A DNA stretch of 38,943 bases from Oscillospiraceae bacterium. GTDB taxonomy: Bacteria > Bacillota > Clostridia > Oscillospirales > Oscillospiraceae. Positions 6,471 through 38,943 of the stretch are shown here, piece after piece. Position 1 is the first letter of the stretch. The number at the start of each line of letters is the position of its first letter. A program made the position numbers and the translations under genes. The notes under the pieces are model-generated. The model saw only the letters and a list, made by a program, of their open reading frames with translations. It was not told the origin of the DNA and did no database searches. The stretch spans positions 1 through 38,943 of the forward strand of contig JAGBEA010000037.1 in assembly GCA_017937195.1 (NCBI GenBank), given 5' to 3'.

Positions 6471-7387
6471 TACTGCTGTACCTCCTTACTGCGGGTTGCA
6501 TTAAGCTGGAGCAGGCTGATGGCCGCCACCACCACAAAGAAGATCACGGCCTTGGCCTGTCCCACGCCGCGGTTGGTGGCCTGAGAGGTGAAGGCGTTGA
6601 CGATGTTCAAAGCCAGCATTTCCGTGGTCTTGATGATCTCGCCGCCCTCCTGAATGAAGGGACGACCCTCGGTCAGTGCCAGGTTCTGATCGTACAGCTT
6701 GAAGCCGTTGGTGAGAGACAGGAAGGTGCAGATGGTGAAGGAGGGCATCATATTGGGGATGGTCACGTGGATCAGCGTATCCCAGCTGCTGGCGCCGTCG
6801 ATACGGGCGGCCTCCATCATATCCTCAGGGATGGCCTGCAAGCCTGCGATATAGATGATCATCATATAGCCGATCTGCTGCCAGCAAAGCAGAATGATCA
6901 GACCCCAGAAGCCGTACTCGGTCTCCATCACAACAGAGGTGTTGAAGCGGATCAGAATACCGTCAAAGATCATGGACCAGATATAGCCCAGCACGATGCC
7001 GCCGATCAGGTTAGGCATAAAGAAGACGGTGCGGAACAGATTGGCGCCGCGCATCTTCTGGGTCAGTGCATAGGCTACGGTAAAGGCCAGCACATTGATC
7101 AGCAGCAGCGACACAACGGCAAACAGCGCCGTGTACCAGAATGCGTGCAGGAAGCTGGGGTCCGTAAAGGCGGTCTTATAGTTGCTCAGACCCGCCCACT
7201 GCGCATCGCTGGTCAGACGGAATTTACAGAAGGACAGATAGATACCCTGCAGGAAGGGATAGAGAAAGCCGATGCAGAAGGCAGCGAAAGTGGGCAGCAG
7301 AAACAGCCACACCATCCGCTGGATCGGCCGGCGGACCAGCCACGAGTTCAGCGCGGCAGCGTCCCGGGACTTTTTCCGGATTTTCAT
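6470..7387 (-). CDS. Carbohydrate ABC transporter permease (MalF-type)
   Basis: 305 aa CUT1 sugar permease with a cytoplasmic basic N-terminus (MKIRKKSRD), first helix MVWLFLLPTFAAFCIGFLYP and the EAA loop DMMEAARIDGASSWDTLIHV. It lacks the large periplasmic P2 loop of enterobacterial MalF, as usual in Firmicutes. Separated from the upstream binding-protein gene by 156 bp containing a long stem-loop, and overlapping the next permease by one base. Confidence 0.9.
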   Translation of the reverse strand: MKIRKKSRDAAALNSWLVRRPIQRMVWLFLLPTFAAFCIGFLYPFLQGIYLSFCKFRLTSDAQWAGLSNYKTAFTDPSFLHAFWYTALFAVVSLLLINVLAFTVAYALTQKMRGANLFRTVFFMPNLIGGIVLGYIWSMIFDGILIRFNTSVVMETEYGFWGLIILLCWQQIGYMMIIYIAGLQAIPEDMMEAARIDGASSWDTLIHVTIPNMMPSFTICTFLSLTNGFKLYDQNLALTEGRPFIQEGGEIIKTTEMLALNIVNAFTSQATNRGVGQAKAVIFFVVVAAISLLQLNATRSKEVQQ

Positions 7388-30007: not shown

Positions 30008-30043
30008 AAAAACCGGACTTCAGTGGCTTGAAGTCCGGTTTTT
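30008..30043 (+). terminator. 36-bp terminator hairpin, copy 1
   Basis: Arms AAAACCGGACTTCA / TGAAGTCCGGTTTT, loop GTGGCT, U-tract. Identical over 36 bases to 31004-31039, so the recombinase gene lies between direct copies. Confidence 0.9.
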
Positions 30044-30104: not shown

Positions 30105-30944
30105 ATGAACAAAAGAATTTTATCTCCCCACCATCTGTCTGCCTTCCGGCAGCACCTGACAGATGACGAAAAGAGCCCCGTCACCATTGAAAAATACCTG
30201 CGCGATGCAACTGTATTTTTTCACTTTTCCGCCGGACGCGAGGTGACCAAGGCTCTGACACTGGCATACAAACAGCATCTGCAGGACAGCGGCTATGCGG
30301 TGCGCTCGGTCAACTCAATGCTGGCGGCAATGAACAGTCTGCTGACCGATCTGGGTTGGGACGATTGCAAAGTGAAAAACCTGCGCTGTCAGCGCCCCAC
30401 CTACCGCGCGGCAAACAAGGAGCTGACCAAAGCCGACTATCTTCTGCTTCTGCAGGCGGCGCAGCCGAACCCACATCTGCGGCTGATTCTGCAGACGATC
30501 TGCGCCACCGGTATCCGCGTATCGGAGCTGCGGTATTTCACCGTGGAGGCGATACAACACGGTGAGATCTCGGTGCGGTGCAAAAACAAGATCCGCACCA
30601 TTCTGCTGCCGGAAAAGCTGCGGTGTCGGCTGTTGTCCTACGCCAAAGACCGCGACATCCTCGAGGGCGCCATCTTTCTGTCTAAGGCAGGCAGCCCCAT
30701 CGACCGCAGCAGTATTTGGGCGCAGATGAAGCGGCTGGCGGCAGCGGCAGGCGTCGATCCTGATAAGGTCTATCCACACAATCTGCGCAAGCTGTTCGCC
30801 CGCACCTTCTACGGCGCAGAGAAGGATATCGCCAAGCTGGCAGATATTTTAGGGCACAGCAGTATCGACACCACACGCATCTATATTATGACCACCGGCG
30901 TGGAGCACCGCAAAAAGCTGGATCGTCTGGGGTTGGTGGTCTGA
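30105..30944 (+). CDS. Tyrosine recombinase (Xer/RecV-like)
   Basis: 279 aa. N-terminal SAM-like core-binding domain (residues ~1-95), C-terminal catalytic domain. All catalytic residues are visible: R138 in ATGIRVSELRY, K162 (KNKIRTI), H225 and R228 in YPHNLRKLFA, H251 in LGHSSIDTTRIY and the nucleophile Y260. Size and single-domain make-up match chromosomal Xer-type or phase-variation recombinases rather than large phage integrases. SD GGAGG. Adjacent to a pair of dif-like sites in inverted orientation, its presumed substrate. Phage or conjugation genes are absent. Confidence 0.9.
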   Translation: MNKRILSPHHLSAFRQHLTDDEKSPVTIEKYLRDATVFFHFSAGREVTKALTLAYKQHLQDSGYAVRSVNSMLAAMNSLLTDLGWDDCKVKNLRCQRPTYRAANKELTKADYLLLLQAAQPNPHLRLILQTICATGIRVSELRYFTVEAIQHGEISVRCKNKIRTILLPEKLRCRLLSYAKDRDILEGAIFLSKAGSPIDRSSIWAQMKRLAAAAGVDPDKVYPHNLRKLFARTFYGAEKDIAKLADILGHSSIDTTRIYIMTTGVEHRKKLDRLGLVV

Positions 30945-30952
30945 ACGCAAAA

Positions 30953-30980
30953 GCGCCACATAATCCGAATTATGTAATTT
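30953..30980. other. dif-like recombination site, left
   Basis: 11-bp arm GCGCCACATAA (30953-30963), 6-bp centre TCCGAA (30964-30969), 11-bp arm TTATGTAATTT (30970-30980): the 11-6-11 layout of Xer/dif sites, with TTATGTAA strongly dif-like. 19 bases (30957-30975) form a perfect inverted repeat with 31278-31296. Confidence 0.7.
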
Positions 30981-31003
30981 TTCCTATCCCTTTCAACTAC
31001 ATA

Positions 31004-31039
31004 AAAAACCGGACTTCAGTGGCTTGAAGTCCGGTTTTT
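31004..31039 (+). terminator. 36-bp terminator hairpin, copy 2 (inside invertible segment)
   Basis: Identical to 30008-30043. In this orientation it ends recombinase transcription. Since the stem is symmetrical and flanked by A-run and T-run, it should work in both orientations. Confidence 0.85.
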
Positions 31040-31201
31040 GTCACACTGTTTTTGCTATACTTGCAAATAATCCCGTTAAAAAAGCGCATTAAAACCAAGC
31101 CTCTGTCCCAAATGACAGCGGCATCCAAATTTTTCTGGTAATTTTCTTGCTTTTTTGGCGGTTTTTTCAGCGAAATCCCTCTGTTATTTAATGCACAAAC
31201 C

Positions 31202-31230
31202 TTGCATTATTTGTCGATTTATGAGATAAT
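31202..31230 (+). promoter_or_regulatory. Promoter of the sipW surface operon
   Basis: -35 TTGCAT (31202-31207), 17-bp spacer, -10 GATAAT (31225-31230). Only good rightward promoter seen between the terminator and sipW; it lies inside the predicted invertible segment. Confidence 0.65.
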
Positions 31231-31272
31231 GTACACCTTAATATTTATAATAGGTATTATAGTTTCTTTTTT

Positions 31273-31300
31273 GCGCCACATAATTCGGATTATGTGACAC
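31273..31300. other. dif-like recombination site, right
   Basis: 11-bp arm GCGCCACATAA (31273-31283), centre TTCGGA (31284-31289), arm TTATGTGACAC (31290-31300). The centre is the exact reverse complement of the left site's centre, so strand exchange between the two sites predicts inversion, not deletion. Confidence 0.7.
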
Positions 31301-31342: not shown

Positions 31343-31873
31343 TTGAACCGGACGCTTAAAAAAATATGCAGCTGGGGCAGCGGTGTGCTGGTGGCGCTGG
31401 TGGTGCTGCTGGCTGTGGCGCTGGTCGGTGTCCGTTTGATCGGTCTGCAGCCGTATATGGTTCTTTCCGGCTCTATGGAACCCACCTACCACGTAGGCTC
31501 GCTGGTCTATGTCAAAGATGTGGATTACAAGGAGCTGACCGTGGGCGACCCCATTACTTATCTCATCAACGAGGACACTGTGGTGACCCACCGCATCATC
31601 GAGGTGCTGGTGGATGAAAATGACCCCGATGTGATCCGATATTTCACCAAGGGCGATGCCAACGAATCCCCGGACGGCGAATCCGTCCACTATCGGAATG
31701 TTTTGGGCAAACCGGTGTTCACCATCCCCTATCTTGGCTATGTGTCCAACTACATCCAGCATCCGCCCGGAATGTATGTGGCCATCTCGGCAGGTGCGAT
31801 CCTGATTCTGCTGGTGTTCCTGCCGGATCTTTTCGAAAAGGACGAGAAGAAAAAGAAATCTGACGAAGCATAA
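31343..31873 (+). CDS. sipW: SipW-type (ER-type) signal peptidase I
   Basis: 176 aa. N-terminal membrane helix (GVLVALVVLLAVALVGV), catalytic Ser44 in MVLSGSMEPTYHVGSLV, His83 in VVTHRI in place of the bacterial Lys (hallmark of SipW/ER-type enzymes), then SGDANE-like KGDANESPDGE and a C-terminal membrane helix. Cleaves the special signal peptides of TasA-like proteins at the outer membrane face. Start is TTG at 31343, AAAGGAG 12 nt upstream; no better codon fits the first helix. First gene of the operon containing four of its likely substrates. Confidence 0.92.
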   Translation: MNRTLKKICSWGSGVLVALVVLLAVALVGVRLIGLQPYMVLSGSMEPTYHVGSLVYVKDVDYKELTVGDPITYLINEDTVVTHRIIEVLVDENDPDVIRYFTKGDANESPDGESVHYRNVLGKPVFTIPYLGYVSNYIQHPPGMYVAISAGAILILLVFLPDLFEKDEKKKKSDEA

Positions 31874-31964: not shown

Positions 31965-32570
31965 ATGAAAAAGAAGAGCACTAAGATTTTGTTGGTGGTG
32001 TTCTGCGCAGTACTGCTGGTGCTGGGCAGCGTGATGGGCACCGTGGCCTATCTGACCTCCGATGCCTCCGTGGAAAACACTTTCACCGTCGGTGATGTGG
32101 AGATCACCCTGCTGGAGACCGATGTGGACGTCTACGGCGTAAAGGACGGCGACACCCGCGTGGCTGCCAACCAGTACAAGCTGCTGCCTGGCCGCGAGTA
32201 TGTCAAGGATCCCGAGATCACCGTTACCAAGGGCAGCGAGGAATGCTGGCTGTTTGTGGTGATCGACAACGGCATCGAAGCTTTCGAGGCTGCTGACAAC
32301 ACCATCGCCGACCAGCTGGCCGATAACGACTGGACCCCCGTTGCCACCGGCAGCAACATCTACTATCACGCCAAGGTCAACGCACTGGATGCCGCCCAGA
32401 CCGTCCCCGTGTTTGAGGGCTTCACCATCGCTGACGAGGCTGACGCCGTCACCGGTTGGGATGCCATCTCCGCCGCTGCCACCAAGGTCACCGTTACCGC
32501 CTATGCCATTCAGGCTGACGGTATGCCCACCTTCACCGATGCCGCCAAGGCACTGGGTCTGATCTCCTGA
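31965..32570 (+). CDS. SipW-dependent TasA/camelysin-like exported protein 1
   Basis: 201 aa. SipW-type signal region: KKKSTKILLVVFCAVLLVLG then MGTVAYLTSDASVENTFTVG, followed by VEITLLETD, the pattern of TasA/camelysin-like matrix proteins. Later ECWLFVVIDNG and VTVTAYAIQADG motifs recur in its three neighbours. Expected to be exported and processed by SipW, possibly polymerising into surface fibres. Excellent SD (AAAGGAGAG). Preferred codons, suggesting high expression. No cell-wall anchor motif. Confidence 0.88.
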   Translation: MKKKSTKILLVVFCAVLLVLGSVMGTVAYLTSDASVENTFTVGDVEITLLETDVDVYGVKDGDTRVAANQYKLLPGREYVKDPEITVTKGSEECWLFVVIDNGIEAFEAADNTIADQLADNDWTPVATGSNIYYHAKVNALDAAQTVPVFEGFTIADEADAVTGWDAISAAATKVTVTAYAIQADGMPTFTDAAKALGLIS

Positions 32571-32631: not shown

Positions 32632-33216
32632 ATGCAAGCAAAGAAAAGTGTAAGCACCAAGGCAGTGGTTCTGCTGCTGGCTCTCGTTCTGCTGCTGGGC
32701 TGCGGTCTGGGCGGCACGCTGGCATGGCTGTCCGCCAAGACGGATCCCGTGGTGAATACCTTCACCGCCGGCAATATCAAGATCACCCTGACCGAGGAAG
32801 GCGCTGTCAACAACGCCCAGTCCTTCAAGATGGTCCCCGGTATCGAGATTGAGAAGAAGCCCGTCGTCTCCGTTTTGGCCAACAGCGAGGAGTGCTGGCT
32901 GTTCGTCAAGGTGGAGGAGAGCGCCACTGTGGCAACCTACCTGACCTACTCCGTTGACTCCGCCATCTGGCAGCCCGTCCCCGGCGAGAGCGGCGTGTTC
33001 TTCAAGAGCATCTCCGCCGCTGATGCCAAGGCCGGCGTCAGCTACGATGTGCTGACCGGCGACATCGTCACCGTCAACTCCGGCGTCACCCAGGATCAGA
33101 TGGATGCCGTCACCGATGCCACCGCCCCCAAGCTGACCTTCACCGCCTACGCCGTGCAGAAGTACGGTTTTGACGATGTGGCAGACGCCTGGGACGAGGC
33201 TGAAAAGCTGGGTTAA
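32632..33216 (+). CDS. SipW-dependent TasA/camelysin-like exported protein 2
   Basis: 194 aa, paralogue of the preceding gene. Signal STKAVVLLLALVLLLGCGLG followed by GGTLAWLSAKTDPVVNTFTAG and IKITLTE, then ECWLFVKVEES and LTFTAYAVQKYGF. SD AAGGAAGG. Separated by 61 bp, no terminator between. Weak lipobox-like LLGCG in the signal is coincidental to this class, since SipW processing follows the AWLS segment. Confidence 0.88.
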   Translation: MQAKKSVSTKAVVLLLALVLLLGCGLGGTLAWLSAKTDPVVNTFTAGNIKITLTEEGAVNNAQSFKMVPGIEIEKKPVVSVLANSEECWLFVKVEESATVATYLTYSVDSAIWQPVPGESGVFFKSISAADAKAGVSYDVLTGDIVTVNSGVTQDQMDAVTDATAPKLTFTAYAVQKYGFDDVADAWDEAEKLG

Positions 33217-33247: not shown

Positions 33248-33943
33248 ATGAAGAAAAAGCTCGTTGCACTGTGTCTGTGCGTTGCGATGCTGGCCATCGC
33301 CATTGTGGGCGGCACGCTGGCATACTTCACCGATACCGATGCCAAGACCAACACCTTTACGCTGGGCAAGGTGGAGATCACCCTGACTGAGCCCAACTAT
33401 GTCACCACCGAGGACGACGGCAGCCTGAAGGTCTTCCCCGGTCAGAGCTATGCCAAGGATCCCACCATCACCGTGGCGGCTGATTCTGAGGATTGCTACA
33501 TCGTGGCTACCGTTACCGTTTCCGAGCTGGCTGCGCTGAAGGCTCTGTACGCCAATGATCCCGAAGTGCTGCAGCCCTGGGGTCTGTCTTTGGCAGGCGC
33601 CGGCGGTCTGGTCAGCGGCGGCGTGGCAGATTATGATCCCACTCCCGCCACCGACAACAATATGGGCGGCACGATGCTCAGCAAGGACGGCGCCGAGGTG
33701 GCTTTCGTCACCTATGCCGAGAATGCCAACGCTGACACCCTGACCTACACCTACTATTTCAAGCAGATCCACTCCGCTAACGACAGCGAGGTGCTGTTTG
33801 ACACCGTCAACGTCCCCGCCATCATCACCAATGACAGCCTGACCAACGGCATTGCCATCGAGGTCAACGCTTACGCCATTCAGGAGATCGGCTTCAACGA
33901 CGTTTACGAGGCCTATGCCGCTTACGTGGCACAGAACGGCTGA
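33248..33943 (+). CDS. SipW-dependent TasA/camelysin-like exported protein 3
   Basis: 231 aa, the longest paralogue. Signal KKKLVALCLCVAMLAIAIVG then GGTLAYFTDTDAKTNTFTLG, VEITLTEPN. Central insertion (VLQPWGLSLAGAGGLVSGG) absent from neighbours, closing segment IEVNAYAIQEIGF. The GGTLAYFTDTD motif is nearly the family consensus. 31 bp after protein 2. A strong double hairpin follows it. Confidence 0.88.
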   Translation: MKKKLVALCLCVAMLAIAIVGGTLAYFTDTDAKTNTFTLGKVEITLTEPNYVTTEDDGSLKVFPGQSYAKDPTITVAADSEDCYIVATVTVSELAALKALYANDPEVLQPWGLSLAGAGGLVSGGVADYDPTPATDNNMGGTMLSKDGAEVAFVTYAENANADTLTYTYYFKQIHSANDSEVLFDTVNVPAIITNDSLTNGIAIEVNAYAIQEIGFNDVYEAYAAYVAQNG

Positions 33944-34029: not shown

Positions 34030-34095
34030 GATAATATTAAATATGTATACCATCCGTTTTTTGACGGTTTTACTCTTGTGAAAGGGAGTGTGACT

Positions 34096-34677
34096 ATGAA
34101 AAACAAGAAAAGGAAAATTTTATATGTGGCGGTGGTGGCCATCTGTCTGTCGATTCTGACCGGCAGCACACTGGCATACTTCACCACGACGGATACGGCG
34201 CACAATGTCATCACCTCCGGTGATATCGACATTGAGGTGGTGCAGCAGGAGCTGCAAGGCGGCGTGCTGCAGCCCATCGCCTCCGCCCAGCTGCGGATGA
34301 TGCCCAGCACCTCCGTCAGCCGTGTTGTTTCTGTGACCAACAAGGCCGAGCGCGCTTGGGTGCGGATGAGCTATTCCCTCACCGTTTACGATGGGGAGGA
34401 GCAACCCCTGCCTCTGTCGCAGGAGGAGCTACGTAAAGTCGTCCTCATCTCCCCTGACGCGGAGCAGTGGACGCTGCAGGATGGCTGGTGGTACTACAAC
34501 CACGACCTGAAGACCGGTGAGAGCACCGCTCCTTTGTTTGAGTCGGTGACCTTCTCCGGCGTCCATATGAACGATGTGTACCAAGGCTGCACCGTGGAGC
34601 TGACCGTCACCGCGCAGGCGGTACAGTATGCCCATAACGGCATCCGCGGACAGGAAATCACCGGCTGGCCGGAATAA
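34096..34677 (+). CDS. SipW-dependent TasA/camelysin-like exported protein 4
   Basis: 193 aa, most divergent paralogue. Signal KKRKILYVAVVAICLSILTG then GSTLAYFTTTDTAHNVITSG, IDIEVVQQE; later VTNKAERAWVRMSYSL and ELTVTAQAVQYAHNGI. SD AAAGGGAG before the ATG at 34096. Tryptophan-rich middle region. Sits 22 bp before the giant repeat protein gene, so it may form its anchor or tip, as minor TasA-like proteins (TapA-like role) do; this is inference. Confidence 0.85.
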   Translation: MKNKKRKILYVAVVAICLSILTGSTLAYFTTTDTAHNVITSGDIDIEVVQQELQGGVLQPIASAQLRMMPSTSVSRVVSVTNKAERAWVRMSYSLTVYDGEEQPLPLSQEELRKVVLISPDAEQWTLQDGWWYYNHDLKTGESTAPLFESVTFSGVHMNDVYQGCTVELTVTAQAVQYAHNGIRGQEITGWPE

Positions 34678-34699: not shown

Positions 34700-37600
34700 A
34701 TGAAAAAGAAACTGTTAGCGCTTTTGTTGACCTTCCTGATGCTGGTCAACCTTGTACCCCCCGATGTATTTGCCGCCACAGCAAGCGGCGAGGAGAGCGC
34801 AGCCATCACCATTCCCGCCTGCTCCGGCTCTCCCACCTGCTGGGGCACGGTCAACGGCGATCCCATCCACAACCACGTGGACGGCTGCGCCAGAAAAGAT
34901 TATCTGAAGGACTATGTCACCTCCTCCACCGCCGCGGACATCGCCGCTGTGTGGAGCGGCTTCACCGCCGAGGAGCAGGCAGATATCCTGCTGATGGTGC
35001 AGGCCTATACCGGCTATATCGATGAGCTGAAGGCCTTGGTGGATACCGGCACCACTCCCGAGCCGGAGCTGCCCAGTGTTTCCACCACCGTCACCGTTGA
35101 CGGCGTGGAGCAGACCGTCACCGTCAAGGGCGAGACGCTGCCTGAGGGTGCCAAGCTGACTGTTACTCCGGTGGCAAATGAAGCAGTCCTTTTGCCGGAG
35201 CTGGATATTGCCAATGGTTTCCTTTGGGATATCAAGGTACAGAACGGTAATAACAGTATTTGGCAGCCCGCTGACGGCGATACTGTCAATGTGACACTCC
35301 CCATTCCCAATGTTCCTAATGACAATTCTCTGAATATCATCCACGTTCTGGATACCCCGGAAGCAATCGAAAAAGCTTTGCGTAACGGAACTGCCCAAAT
35401 CGGTAGTGTTGCCGGCGAAAGTGATGCTGTCAAGCAGACCTTTGCCGCAGCTGTTTCCGCATATGCGCAGGTAACCGGTGAAGCCGATACCTTTGCTGCG
35501 GAATATTATGAAAATATCCCCGTTATTGACGGCTATATTACTTTTTCAACATCTGGCTTCTCTATTTATTCCTGGAACGGATCTTTCTCGCACACCCGCT
35601 ACGAAAACACCACTGACGACCGTTATGTTTTGAGATCGAACAACGGCGGAACACTGTATATGACCCGCAATCAGCTTATCCATCTGGACTCCGGTGAAAA
35701 TGCCGGTGACCAGGATAACTGGACATTCAGCGGTCCTTATAGCATCGACAGTTGGAGCACCAACGACCGCCCCAGACTTCGCGTTAACTCCGATGCTACT
35801 ATCGGCGCTACAATTACGGTCAATGTCGCTTGGGGCGGTTTTTTGGGCATCGGCAAGTATAATCACACGATTTATCTGGTAGTGGTTGAAGAGCGCACCG
35901 TAACATTCAATGGCAACGGCGGTACTCCCGAATCTGCCTCGGCAACTGCCATTACCGATAACGGATCTCATGTCCAAAATGTGACCCTTCCCAATTCCTC
36001 CACCACCTCCCGCACCGGCTATACACTCACCGGCTGGAAACTCAACAATACCGGCACCAACTATGCCCCCGGTGCCAGCTATATGCCCTCCTCGTCCGGT
36101 CAGACGCTGTATGCCCAGTGGTCGGCAAACAACTACACCCTTACCTTTAACGCAAACGGCGGCTCTGTTTCTCCCGCCAGCAAAACTGTGACCTATGACA
36201 GCGCCTACGGCGATCTGCCCACCCCCAGTCGCACCAACTACCGTTTCCTCGGCTGGTATACGGCGGCATCCGGCGGCACGCAGGTCACCTCCGCCACGGT
36301 ACATAAGACCGCCGGCAACACCACGATTTATGCCCACTGGACTTGGGATGTGCAGATCACCAACACCTATGACGGCTATCTGCGCCCCGCAGGCGCTACT
36401 CCTGCCAGCTACAAGTGGTATCGCGACTCCGCCAGCTATGTGGATAAAAACACCACCTGGAACAACAGCTGGACTGCTGTGTCCTCCTCCAATCTCAGCG
36501 GCAACAATGTGAACGTGCTGAAGGACAAGGGCTATGTGCAGGAGGACAGCAGCACCGTATCCGGCGACGCCGTATCCGGCATCAAGTACCGCTACCGCTT
36601 GGACGCTTTGGACAGCTCCGGCAATGTGATCGGCTCCGCCTATTACACGGTCAACTTCGGCGACCACATCCTCAACAGCAGCTTTGAAGCGCCCTACCAA
36701 GGTCCGAAAACCTGCATGGGCTATGTCTATAATCAGGAGAACATCTTCTGGAGCTCCACCGTCACCGGTGAGATACACAGCGGTCGCCCGTGGGACATTG
36801 AGCTTGTCGGCTCCGAGTCAGCCGGTTTCAGCAATAAGATTGCCTTTGACGGCGATCAGTATGCCGAGATCAACGCCAACGCGGCAGCAGCTCTGTATCA
36901 GGATGTGATCACCGAGCCCAACAGCTACTTTGGCTGGTCGCTGAGTCACTCCTGCCGTCTGACCTCCGGCACGGACACTATGTATGTGCTGATCGCGCCC
37001 TCCAACACGGCGCGCTTTGTGGAAACGCAGGACGAGCTGGACATCCTCATCAACAACGCCAAGAGCGTCGCTGATGCCGCTGCCACCGAGGAAGCCAAGG
37101 CGGATGTTATGTCCGGCGAGACCCAGCTGACCGCCACCGTTGACGGACAGACCGTGGTCTACCGCATCTGGGAAATCAGCTCCGCCTTTAACGACGTCAC
37201 TACCTGGACGCTGCACTCCGGCAACTACTATGTGCCTGCCGGTCAGCAGATGACCCGCTTCTTCTTTGCCGCCGGCGAGACCGCTGCCACCGCGCAGGGC
37301 GACACCACAAACGGCGACACCATCGGCAATCTGGTGGATTCCGTGTCCTTTGCCGACAAGATCTACTACACCGTTAACTACTATCTGGACGGCAAGCTGC
37401 TGCCCCAGTATGGTGAAAGCGGCGGTGGCGATGCCGGTGATGTGATTTACTCCAACACCGACACCATCAACGCCATCCTCAATAATGGCGCCACCATGCT
37501 GCAGAGCGTGTATCTGAACAACACCTATCAGGCAGTGTCCGACCAGCCCTCTATGACGCTGGCAGAGAATCGCGCCAACAACCTGCACCTGAACTTCGCT

Positions 37601-38943
37601 TCCAACTACACGCTGACCTTTAACTTCAACGGCAGCGGAAGAGCTGACAGCTCTTTCACCGTCACCTACAACTCCAGCAACTACTATGAGGTCAACTGGC
37701 TGGATCCCGTCCGTGACGGTCACTCCTTCGACGGCTGGTTCACCCTGTCCGAGGGCGGCGTACAGGTGTACAGCGATGACGGCTACTGCCTTGAGGGCGA
37801 TTACTGGGACAGCAACAACCGCTGGATCGGTTCTTCCGACCTGACGGTATATGCCCATTGGACGCCCCTGCCCTACACCGTTACTTGGGTAGACGGCGAC
37901 GGCAAAACGCTGAAGACCGACAGCGTCCTCTACGGCGACACGCCTGCTTACACCGGCGCAACGCCTACCAAGAAGGCAGATGCCCAGTACACCTACACCT
38001 TCAACGGTACTTGGTCGCCTGCCATCAGCGCTGTCACCGGCGATGCTACCTACACGGCGCAGTTTGACAGAACCGTCAACAAGTACACCGTCACTTGGGT
38101 CAACCACGACGGCTCCCTTCTGGAGACCGACACCAATGTCCCCTACGGCACTGACCCCAGCTATGACGGCGCTGCGCCCACCAAGCCCGCCGACAGCGAA
38201 TACACCTACAAGTGGGTAGGCTGGAATCCTACGGTCTCTGCAGTCACCGGCAATGTCATTTATGTGGCAAGCTATGACCGCACCCCCATCCCCTACACTG
38301 TCACTTGGGTGGACGGCGATGGTAAGACCTTGAAGACCGAGTCCTATTATTCCAACGATATCCCCTCTTATACCGGTGCAACGCCCACCAAGAAGGCGGA
38401 TGACCAGTATATTTACACCTTCAACGGCAAATGGTCGCCTGCTATCGTACCGGTCACCGGCGATGCCACTTACACAGCGCAGTTTGACAGTGCCGTCAAT
38501 GAGTACACCGTCACTTGGGTGGACGGTGACGGCAAGACGCTGGGTGAGACCGTCTATAAGTACGGCGATACCCCCGCCTACACCGGCGCTGCGCCCACCA
38601 AGAAGGCTACCGACCAGTACACCTACACCTTCAACGGTACTTGGTCGCCCGAGATCGTGACGGTCACCGGCGATGCCACCTACACCGCACAGTTTGACAA
38701 GACCGTCAATTCCTACACCGTCACTTGGGTGGACGGTGACGGCAAGACACTGGGCGAGACCGTCTATAAGTACGGCGATACCCCTGCCTACACCGGCGCT
38801 GCGCCCACCAAGAAGGCGGATGCCCAGTATACCTACACCTTCAACGGTACTTGGTCGCCCGAGATCGTGACGGTCACCGGCGATGCCACCTACACCGCAC
38901 AGTTTGACAAGACCGTCAATTCCTACACCGTCACTTGGGTGGA
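34700..38943 (+). CDS. Giant InlB-type repeat surface protein (C-terminus outside window)
   Basis: 1414 codons visible, cut by the right edge. Signal peptide KKKLLALLLTFLMLVNLVPP, cleavage near VFAATA. Residues ~30-390: unique region with an H/C-rich patch (CWGTVNGDPIHNHVDGC). Listeria-Bacteroides (InlB B) repeats at ~395-475, ~477-550 (each with a GYTLTGW- or RFLGWYT-type turn and ending YAQW/YAHW) and ~970-1055. Then a carbohydrate-binding-like middle part (FGDHILNSSFEAP, ~650-880). From residue 1059 a tandem array of 70-residue repeats starts YTVTWVDGDGKTL. SD AAGGAAGGAG. Probable adhesin; cell-wall anchor not visible. Confidence 0.9.
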   Translation, partial: MKKKLLALLLTFLMLVNLVPPDVFAATASGEESAAITIPACSGSPTCWGTVNGDPIHNHVDGCARKDYLKDYVTSSTAADIAAVWSGFTAEEQADILLMVQAYTGYIDELKALVDTGTTPEPELPSVSTTVTVDGVEQTVTVKGETLPEGAKLTVTPVANEAVLLPELDIANGFLWDIKVQNGNNSIWQPADGDTVNVTLPIPNVPNDNSLNIIHVLDTPEAIEKALRNGTAQIGSVAGESDAVKQTFAAAVSAYAQVTGEADTFAAEYYENIPVIDGYITFSTSGFSIYSWNGSFSHTRYENTTDDRYVLRSNNGGTLYMTRNQLIHLDSGENAGDQDNWTFSGPYSIDSWSTNDRPRLRVNSDATIGATITVNVAWGGFLGIGKYNHTIYLVVVEERTVTFNGNGGTPESASATAITDNGSHVQNVTLPNSSTTSRTGYTLTGWKLNNTGTNYAPGASYMPSSSGQTLYAQWSANNYTLTFNANGGSVSPASKTVTYDSAYGDLPTPSRTNYRFLGWYTAASGGTQVTSATVHKTAGNTTIYAHWTWDVQITNTYDGYLRPAGATPASYKWYRDSASYVDKNTTWNNSWTAVSSSNLSGNNVNVLKDKGYVQEDSSTVSGDAVSGIKYRYRLDALDSSGNVIGSAYYTVNFGDHILNSSFEAPYQGPKTCMGYVYNQENIFWSSTVTGEIHSGRPWDIELVGSESAGFSNKIAFDGDQYAEINANAAAALYQDVITEPNSYFGWSLSHSCRLTSGTDTMYVLIAPSNTARFVETQDELDILINNAKSVADAAATEEAKADVMSGETQLTATVDGQTVVYRIWEISSAFNDVTTWTLHSGNYYVPAGQQMTRFFFAAGETAATAQGDTTNGDTIGNLVDSVSFADKIYYTVNYYLDGKLLPQYGESGGGDAGDVIYSNTDTINAILNNGATMLQSVYLNNTYQAVSDQPSMTLAENRANNLHLNFASNYTLTFNFNGSGRADSSFTVTYNSSNYYEVNWLDPVRDGHSFDGWFTLSEGGVQVYSDDGYCLEGDYWDSNNRWIGSSDLTVYAHWTPLPYTVTWVDGDGKTLKTDSVLYGDTPAYTGATPTKKADAQYTYTFNGTWSPAISAVTGDATYTAQFDRTVNKYTVTWVNHDGSLLETDTNVPYGTDPSYDGAAPTKPADSEYTYKWVGWNPTVSAVTGNVIYVASYDRTPIPYTVTWVDGDGKTLKTESYYSNDIPSYTGATPTKKADDQYIYTFNGKWSPAIVPVTGDATYTAQFDSAVNEYTVTWVDGDGKTLGETVYKYGDTPAYTGAAPTKKATDQYTYTFNGTWSPEIVTVTGDATYTAQFDKTVNSYTVTWVDGDGKTLGETVYKYGDTPAYTGAAPTKKADAQYTYTFNGTWSPEIVTVTGDATYTAQFDKTVNSYTVTWV
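37874..38943 (+). repeat. Tandem 210-bp (70-residue) repeats
   Basis: Repeat starts (TACACYGTYACTTGGGT) at 37874, 38084, 38294, 38504, 38714 and 38924: exactly 210 bp apart. Five full copies and the start of a sixth. The copies starting at 38504 and 38714 are nearly identical at DNA level, while those at 38084 and 38294 have diverged. The array probably continues past the window. Confidence 0.95.

Follow-up and report, generated by a model that had tools for sequence, protein, structure and literature searches.

Organization of the putative switch locus

The locus analyzed here raises the question of whether the short intergenic segment between a tyrosine recombinase gene and a sipW-like gene is an invertible promoter, turned around by the neighboring enzyme. 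The locus lies within a stretch of 38,943 nucleotides from an Oscillospiraceae bacterium (contig JAGBEA010000037.1 of assembly GCA_017937195.1), which we named the window; its genome is designated G000. The elements of the putative switch are as follows.

30008..30043, unstranded: 36-bp terminator repeated exactly, located between the recombinase gene and the gene before it
30105..30944, plus strand: tyrosine recombinase (invertase), 279 aa (PF00589, E 4e-24)
30953..30980, unstranded: left recombination site, GCGCCACATAA TCCGAA TTATGTAATTT (arm 11 bp, center 6 bp, arm 11 bp)
30970..31283, unstranded: segment between both 6-bp centers, predicted to invert by analogy with the crossover window of relatives
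31004..31039, unstranded: terminator-type hairpin, 15-bp perfect stem, A/T tracts on both strands
31202..31230, plus strand: candidate extended -10 promoter towards sipW, TTGCAT-17-(TGA)GATAAT
31273..31300, unstranded: right recombination site, inverted, GCGCCACATAA TTCGGA TTATGTGACAC (center 31284-31289)

As claimed in the original prediction, two sites of 11-6-11 layout could be confirmed from the sequence at 30953-30980 and 31273-31300, and their centers, TCCGAA on the left and TTCGGA on the right, are mutual reverse complements. The inverted arms comprise 24 nt with 92% complementarity and a spacing of 302 nt, and their core is the perfect 19-nt inverted repeat that had been described as common to both sites. 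These repeats flank a short intergenic segment, the left site lying 8 bp from the recombinase gene and the right site 42 bp from the sipW-like gene (31343). In the left site the strong arm GCGCCACATAA lies on the outside, in the right site on the inside; identity to it is 6/11 in TTATGTAATTT, the left inner arm, and 9/11 in TTATGTGACAC. Owing to this placement of the GCGCCACATAA arms, a flip would yield one fully symmetric left site, in agreement with what had been foreseen.

The site pattern was also searched for in the whole genome G000. Allowing up to three mismatches, five matches were found, three of which represent these two sites (with 0, 0 and, on the opposite strand, 2 mismatches), while the remaining two lie elsewhere with 3 mismatches each. 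Since a reversed control pattern gives 4 matches, the 3-mismatch level corresponds to chance. The window sites resemble dif in the 11-6-11 layout and in the motif CATAA..TTATGT, inner arms that are the same as in dif. A Firmicutes-type dif pattern finds no counterpart in G000 even when three mismatches are allowed. The pattern of the window interior is absent from viral_contigs, and no flipped copy of the window locus was present among the genomes and loci compared.

For the hairpin at 31004-31039, folding energies of -22.8 and -22.1 kcal/mol (z -6.9 and -7.5) are predicted for the two strands. The hairpin was not listed in the terminator scan of the window; the strong fold on both strands and the A/T tracts on either side fit the bidirectional terminator that had been proposed. 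In G000, the 26-nt core of this terminator matches (up to three mismatches) only the copies at 30008-30043 and 31004-31039. The two copies form a 36-bp direct repeat, 996 bp apart, that brackets the recombinase gene and the left site, and a homologous deletion between them would lose both, locking the switch. Terminator duplication was rejected as a trait of the family, since among 75 loci the window alone showed an exact share of at least 18 nt; the negative is a weak one, as only 38 of 98 loci had at least 300 nt of upstream sequence.

The recombinase and its linkage to inverted sites

The recombinase ORF is intact and encodes all catalytic residues, so that a complete R-K-HxxR-H-Y enzyme adjoins the segment. 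Among the 98 site-linked members of the family, the window included, R138, K162, H225, R228 and H251 are kept in all and Y260 in 97. The enzyme falls below every curated NCBIfam cut-off for XerC, XerD, XerS or XerA (bits/cut-off: XerA-arch 130.4/220, XerD 98.1/329.6, XerC 86.9/335.15, XerS 52.9/267), and among solved structures it is nearest to chains 1a0p (XerD) and 4a8e, the latter having been deposited as probable XerC-like. Two further PF00589 genes are located elsewhere in the window genome, and their products are presumably XerD and XerC, judging by sequence. An annotated psrA of a Streptococcus dysgalactiae plasmid record shares 32% identity with the window recombinase, and a 33% relative on Ruminococcus albus 7 pRUMAL02 (L214) adjoins two type I restriction hsdS genes in a PsrA-type arrangement.

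Relatives of the recombinase (E 1e-30) were found in 32 of 99 genomes sampled from genus to order, counting that of the window, and in 9 of 32 genomes of its genus; at 1e-60, at least 105 of 400 genomes of its family carry one. The largest number of matches in a single genome is 15 (G051). Within the listing of these at least 105 genomes, loci for the linkage analysis were fetched largely from the upper part. The sample, which includes the window, consisted of 138 matches, 130 of them full-length and 119 with at least 350 bp downstream; L008-L038 and L099-L123 were omitted from the count as covered by wider fetches or other loci, or because others were preferred (L008 and L098 are the same contig stretch). 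Site pairs had to start between -30 and +80 nt around the recombinase stop codon, with the partner 120-700 nt further on.

An inverted site pair with a score of at least 14 was detected downstream of 94 of the 119 recombinase copies and in none of 595 dinucleotide shuffles; at a score of at least 13 the numbers were 98/119 and 2/595. At the latter score the pair is absent in 21 of the 119 copies, four of which (L127, L082, L083, L095) have one further away. The closest relatives of the window recombinase, two enzymes in G006 (L039; 66% and 64-65% identical), have no site pair; their genes (G006:C56:2427-3236 and 6500-7336) lie on the same strand about 3 kb apart. The 6-bp centers agree in inverted register in 98/98 loci and none is self-complementary, a within-locus match that is partly built into the pair finding. 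The diversity between loci, with 67 different centers across the 98, is not. In that part of the family to which the window belongs the half-site reads ACATAA; elsewhere it is ACAAAA, ACAGAA, ACGGAA or ACATTA. Since the half-sites vary across the family, a dedicated invertase with its own sites appears likelier than the host Xer/dif system. The claim of a linked tyrosine recombinase is thus borne out by the intact enzyme and by the family-wide linkage, whereas the description of the sites as dif-like suits the window and only part of its family.

Named records with site pairs include Pusillibacter faecalis (strain MM59), Subdoligranulum variabile (two; strain TSDC17.2-1.1) and Monoglobus pectinilyticus; in P. 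faecalis, the next annotated gene after the cassette encodes an S-layer-domain protein. A phage origin was considered and rejected: none of 13 pattern-matching stretches in viral_contigs encodes a relative, and the single relative in the phage collection (43%) is without a site pair. Some loci carry third sites, namely two right sites in L040 (G006:C56) and tandem left sites in L079:3535-3880 (G077; 63 bp apart) and in G093 (contig end of L008/L098; about 40 bp), which could permit deletions and alternative inversions. Five cassettes of G051 (L050, L055, L056, L057 and L059) have an identical 248-nt interior, which suggests recent copying of the module.

Inversion among relatives

Comparison of relatives shows that cassettes of this recombinase family invert as a unit, with the crossover inside the sites. 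The clearest pairs share flanks and differ in the orientation of the interior. In the single-contig genome G431, two places (L202 and L203) encode identical recombinases and have 218-nt interiors that are 100% identical but in opposite orientation, between collinear flanks of 960 nt (100%) and 2799 nt (99.5%). L075 and L076, from two species of the window's genus (G025 and G003), have inverted interiors (94.8% over 252 nt) between collinear flanks (96%). Additionally, the interior of L137 runs opposite to those of L158, L152 and L141 (76-81%), with long shared cargo in the case of L158 only. In L075/L076 and L202/L203, differences in the outer arms stay with the flank and those in the inner arms travel with the segment; because the outer arms are fixed and the inner arms swapped, the strands must have been exchanged inside the site. 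The crossover window measures 17 nt in L075/L076 and 13 nt in L202/L203, and each contains the 6-bp center. Many related pairs have the same orientation (e.g. L183/L191, L046/L047, L132/L134, L135/L151), which is expected also without flipping; the comparison covers no pairs with the G051 copies L050, L055, L057 and L059. Both orientations exist among relatives.

Several contigs break at the sites. The recombinase contig of G027 ends at CATAATGTTGATTATGT, 6 nt past the left-site center, and a second G027 contig starts with the identical last 55 nt and runs into the segment in the OFF orientation. As a 17-nt repeat alone would not split a graph having a 55-nt overlap, the read graph was probably branched, with two continuations in the reads. 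Five of eight further contig starts end 1-8 nt past an apparent left-site center (G282:C6, G304:C28, G304:C5, G348:C101 and G302:C36), the center being judged from the half-site pattern with the partner site missing; in the other three (L226-L228) the break is not inside the left site. G093:C33 also ends 6 nt past a left-site center. No partner contig overlapping the broken ends was found in G304 (one of two ends) or G302. Among the matches listed, contigs stop no more than 120 nt past the recombinase at 11 of 99 minus-strand places, and no more than 120 nt ahead of it at 1 of 90 plus-strand places (Fisher p 0.0055; the window, four partial matches and one distant match, in G090, left out). 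For some of these 11 breaks there may be different reasons, such as the multi-copy situation in G051 or the truncated gene in G066:C9.

Promoter geometry and the probable state of the window

Both strands of the 98 segments were scored for promoters with approximate weights, a clear call requiring a score above 9 and a 2-bit lead. Clear calls point outward, away from the recombinase, in 20 segments and inward in 61, with 17 uncalled. The end of the -10 element lies 50-80 nt from the segment edge in 15 of the 20 outward and 56 of the 61 inward calls, compared to 4/37 and 6/54 in shuffled interiors. A flipping unit would be expected to show just such a shared geometry. The hairpin stands upstream of the promoter in the family, and when segments are oriented by the promoter, the strongest one falls in their second quarter in 45/61 cases versus 17/52 in shuffles (the window labeled ON by hand). 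At 90% recombinase identity, 87 clusters comprise 46 with OFF only, 14 with ON only and 1 with both, the rest being without a call in position; the excess of OFF-only over ON-only clusters has a binomial p of 4e-5. In a quick recombinase tree with 35 open forks, at least 15 ON/OFF changes occur over 17 ON and 56 OFF rows, a raw count in which the window (by geometry) and L203 (by identity to L202) were set to ON by hand.

In the window, the candidate promoter is weak by consensus, TTGCAT (31202-31207) matching at 3/6 and GATAAT (31225-31230) at 5/6 positions, with TGA as the extended -10. A consensus promoter scan lists none on the plus strand and two on the minus strand, where 1.0 is expected. 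Without a position rule, the window scores 8.4 outward and 9.7 inward, which leaves its direction undecided; when the position range of the family is applied, the outward candidate scores 8.3 and the best inward one 4.4. Between the end of the -10 element and the outer edge of the site core there are 66 nt, which is the commonest distance among the 81 called loci (12/81). Since this candidate promoter stands at the commonest position of the family and points at sipW, the orientation as sequenced is read as ON. The ON orientation that had been claimed is thus supported by the family comparison of promoter position and direction; the claimed -35/17/-10 promoter is a candidate with the stated hexamers, 17-nt spacing and family position, but it has a weak consensus, is absent from the scan list and is not singled out by the score without the position rule.

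Genes downstream of the proposed switch and cargo of the family

The genes behind the right site of the window are as follows.

31343..31873, plus strand: SipW-like signal peptidase starting at TTG (above the TIGR02228 cut-off with 103.7 bits)
31965..32570, plus strand: secreted protein, signal peptide of the SipW type, judged TasA-like from its context (above the TIGR04088 cut-off with 29.4 bits)
32632..33216, plus strand: secreted protein, signal peptide of the SipW type (above the TIGR04088 cut-off with 22.9 bits)
33248..33943, plus strand: BsaA/camelysin-like protein (PF12389 and TIGR04088 above cut-off, TIGR04090 below)
34078..34677, plus strand: BsaA/camelysin-like protein (PF12389 and TIGR04088 above cut-off, TIGR04090 below), putatively cotranscribed
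34700..38941, plus strand: large Listeria-Bacteroides repeat protein that leaves the contig end (PF09479, 100.5 bits), putatively cotranscribed

The peptidase also scores 107.4 bits with the SipW model NF046067, below its cut-off of 190, and the products of 31965..32570 and 32632..33216 match no Pfam family. All four genes scanned behind the peptidase exceed the TIGR04088 cut-off, in keeping with an operon of the SipW-TasA/BsaA type. In SipW-TasA of B. subtilis and in clostridial BsaA-SipW, a dedicated signal peptidase adjoins secreted fibre-type substrates.

A second sipW-like case under such a switch is L079 (G077), in another family of the order: the cassette, with its duplicated left site, immediately precedes a sipW-like gene (39% identity over 117 residues), and a relative of P0004 follows about 3 kb on. 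In L047 (G045), a sipW-like gene lies about 3.8 kb behind the cassette. Within the window's genus, five other species have sipW-like and TasA/BsaA-like genes, and a sixth has a sipW-like gene alone. These loci (L184-L189) were considered as hidden switches and rejected, as none of the six has a relative of the recombinase (P0001) at 1e-5 within the fetched 6-9 kb. Inverted repeats were searched for at five of the sipW-like loci, and only L184 has a pair, of 14 nt and without site character.

Cargo was scanned in 70 downstream outward-strand ORFs of loci L007-L202 picked by length (plus P0002 for the window); the longest ORF is on the opposite strand in 16/94 loci, and some scanned ORFs may be shadow frames. 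Among the best 25 of 36 families, DUF4379 (treble clef) is the commonest with 12/70 ORFs, followed by PIR1-like_C (11), pilin-type N_methyl (7), Phage_int_SAM_1 (6), Listeria-Bacteroides repeats (5), ZnF_RZ (4), BspA-type LRR (3), ResIII (3) and DEAD (3), where one ORF may match several families; single cases include flagellin, SLH, collagen and GGDEF. Phage_int_SAM_1 is a phage-integrase N-terminal domain, so that these six cargo ORFs point to a further recombinase. No paper joining an inverton and DUF4379 was listed in the literature searched.

Proposed mechanism and alternative explanations

Taken together, the comparisons make it highly probable that the window carries a self-contained flip switch controlling sipW and the surface-protein genes. 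The tyrosine recombinase would bind the four similar half-sites and exchange strands within the 6-bp centers, whereby the intervening segment, terminator then promoter, would be inverted. In the ON state, as sequenced, sipW and the genes for SipW-dependent surface proteins would be transcribed by the rightward promoter, with the terminator halting read-through from the recombinase. After a flip (OFF), the promoter would read left, antisense into the recombinase, and the terminator would sit between promoter and sipW; this state should yield antisense RNA over the recombinase gene. We infer continued flipping of the window copy, activity of the named promoter and its use for transcription of the downstream genes. 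The invertible promoter with adjacent recombinase, the central claim of the original prediction, is accordingly upheld for the relatives by inverted interiors, both promoter orientations and the site linkage.

Three other explanations have to be weighed. It is unlikely that the cassette is locked or decaying in the window strain, either no longer flipping or no longer driving sipW. Such decay would fit the weak -35 and -10 hexamers, the left inner arm with its poor match to the strong arm, the lack of site pairs in the nearest relatives (G006) and the contig that passes unbroken through the window sites, but the catalytically complete enzyme, the perfect 19-nt core with identical centers and a promoter at the same position as in the family argue for a working unit. 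Even less probable is inversion by host XerC/XerD, instead of the adjacent enzyme, at captured dif-like sites. The host system was not our first choice because the half-sites change from one part of the family to another while the linkage to the recombinase stays constant; the dif-like inner arms and the presumed XerD and XerC of the genome are the points in its favor.

That the palindromes are repressor operators, with no inversion at all, we consider extremely improbable. Each site is near-palindromic and of the size of a repressor operator, yet inverted interiors between collinear flanks, the occurrence of the promoter in both orientations, and asymmetric centers that match in inverted register (in part a product of the pair search) all speak for recombination. 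The self-contained flip switch hence remains the preferred reading.

Implications

If this switch operates, a TasA/SipW-type surface layer is predicted to be made by only part of a clonal population in this lineage of Clostridia. By the rule derived from the family (recombinase on the left, promoter some 66 nt from the edge, terminator upstream of the promoter), the ON/OFF state and the targets could be read from assemblies. A contig breaking off inside a site may also be an inexpensive hint of a live switch. Recurrent cargo marks genes for which phase variation is perhaps preferred, i.e. DUF4379, pilin-type N-methyl, repeat adhesins, helicase/restriction-type genes and recombinases.

A broader picture is offered tentatively, since its four parts may well not hold jointly: a portable flip module of the Clostridia order, own-arm specificity, antisense feedback in the OFF state and control of a fibre layer in the window. 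The module would begin with the recombinase and the left site, continue with a terminator, a promoter whose -10 lies some 66 nt from the edge and the right site, and be followed by any cargo, and its copy in the window would govern a fibre-type surface layer. Own-arm recognition would let many modules exist side by side in one genome, as the 15 recombinase matches of G051 might indicate. OFF-state antisense transcription through the recombinase would reduce switching and make OFF more heritable, which would explain the 46 OFF-only versus 14 ON-only clusters.

Comparison with known systems

In E. coli fimS, acted upon by FimB/FimE, a promoter-bearing segment of about 300 bp is flanked by short inverted repeats, with tyrosine recombinases nearby. 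The window differs from it in having a single recombinase, palindromic sites that resemble dif, a segment with a strong hairpin terminator of its own, and cargo of the SipW/TasA type instead of fimbrial cargo. PsrA invertases shuffle hsdS coding sequence; they are, like the window enzyme, related tyrosine recombinases working on inverted repeats, whereas the window system would invert a promoter segment.

The fim switch measures 296 bp according to PMC5903667, where inversion signatures are described in 15 Firmicutes samples, 14 of them Clostridia, and RecV appears as the master recombinase for some, not all, C. difficile sites. The RecV and other C. difficile switches resemble the window in that inverted repeats of Clostridia, some of them acted on by a recombinase, turn a neighboring gene ON or OFF (PMC5903667); unlike RecV-controlled sites, most switches of the window's family carry their own recombinase directly upstream. 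The parallel with fimS and RecV that had been drawn is thus supported by the family comparison.

A closer relation may exist to inverton group 139, which according to PMC11892184 comprises 33 invertons from the human gut, 32 of the class Clostridia, and shows a significant linkage to a tyrosine-type recombinase nearby (invertase group 35). The linked recombinase is described there as enriched in the orientation inaccessible to the inverton promoter. Group 139 and invertase group 35 may well be the window's family. The main text of that paper is without SipW, signal peptidase or camelysin. In literature searches that covered subscription journals thinly, we found neither a SipW/TasA operon under an invertible promoter nor a paper on invertible DNA and a tyrosine recombinase in Oscillospir-. 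The novelty originally claimed holds for the SipW/TasA target, for which these searches gave no published report, but not for recombinase-linked invertons as such, which are established in Clostridia (PMC11892184, PMC5903667). As far as our searches reach, what is new is a SipW/TasA-type operon under a recombinase-linked inverton, together with the fixed architecture of the cassette. Compared to the SipW-TasA and BsaA-SipW operons, the operon of the window is distinguished by the probable flip switch in front of it.
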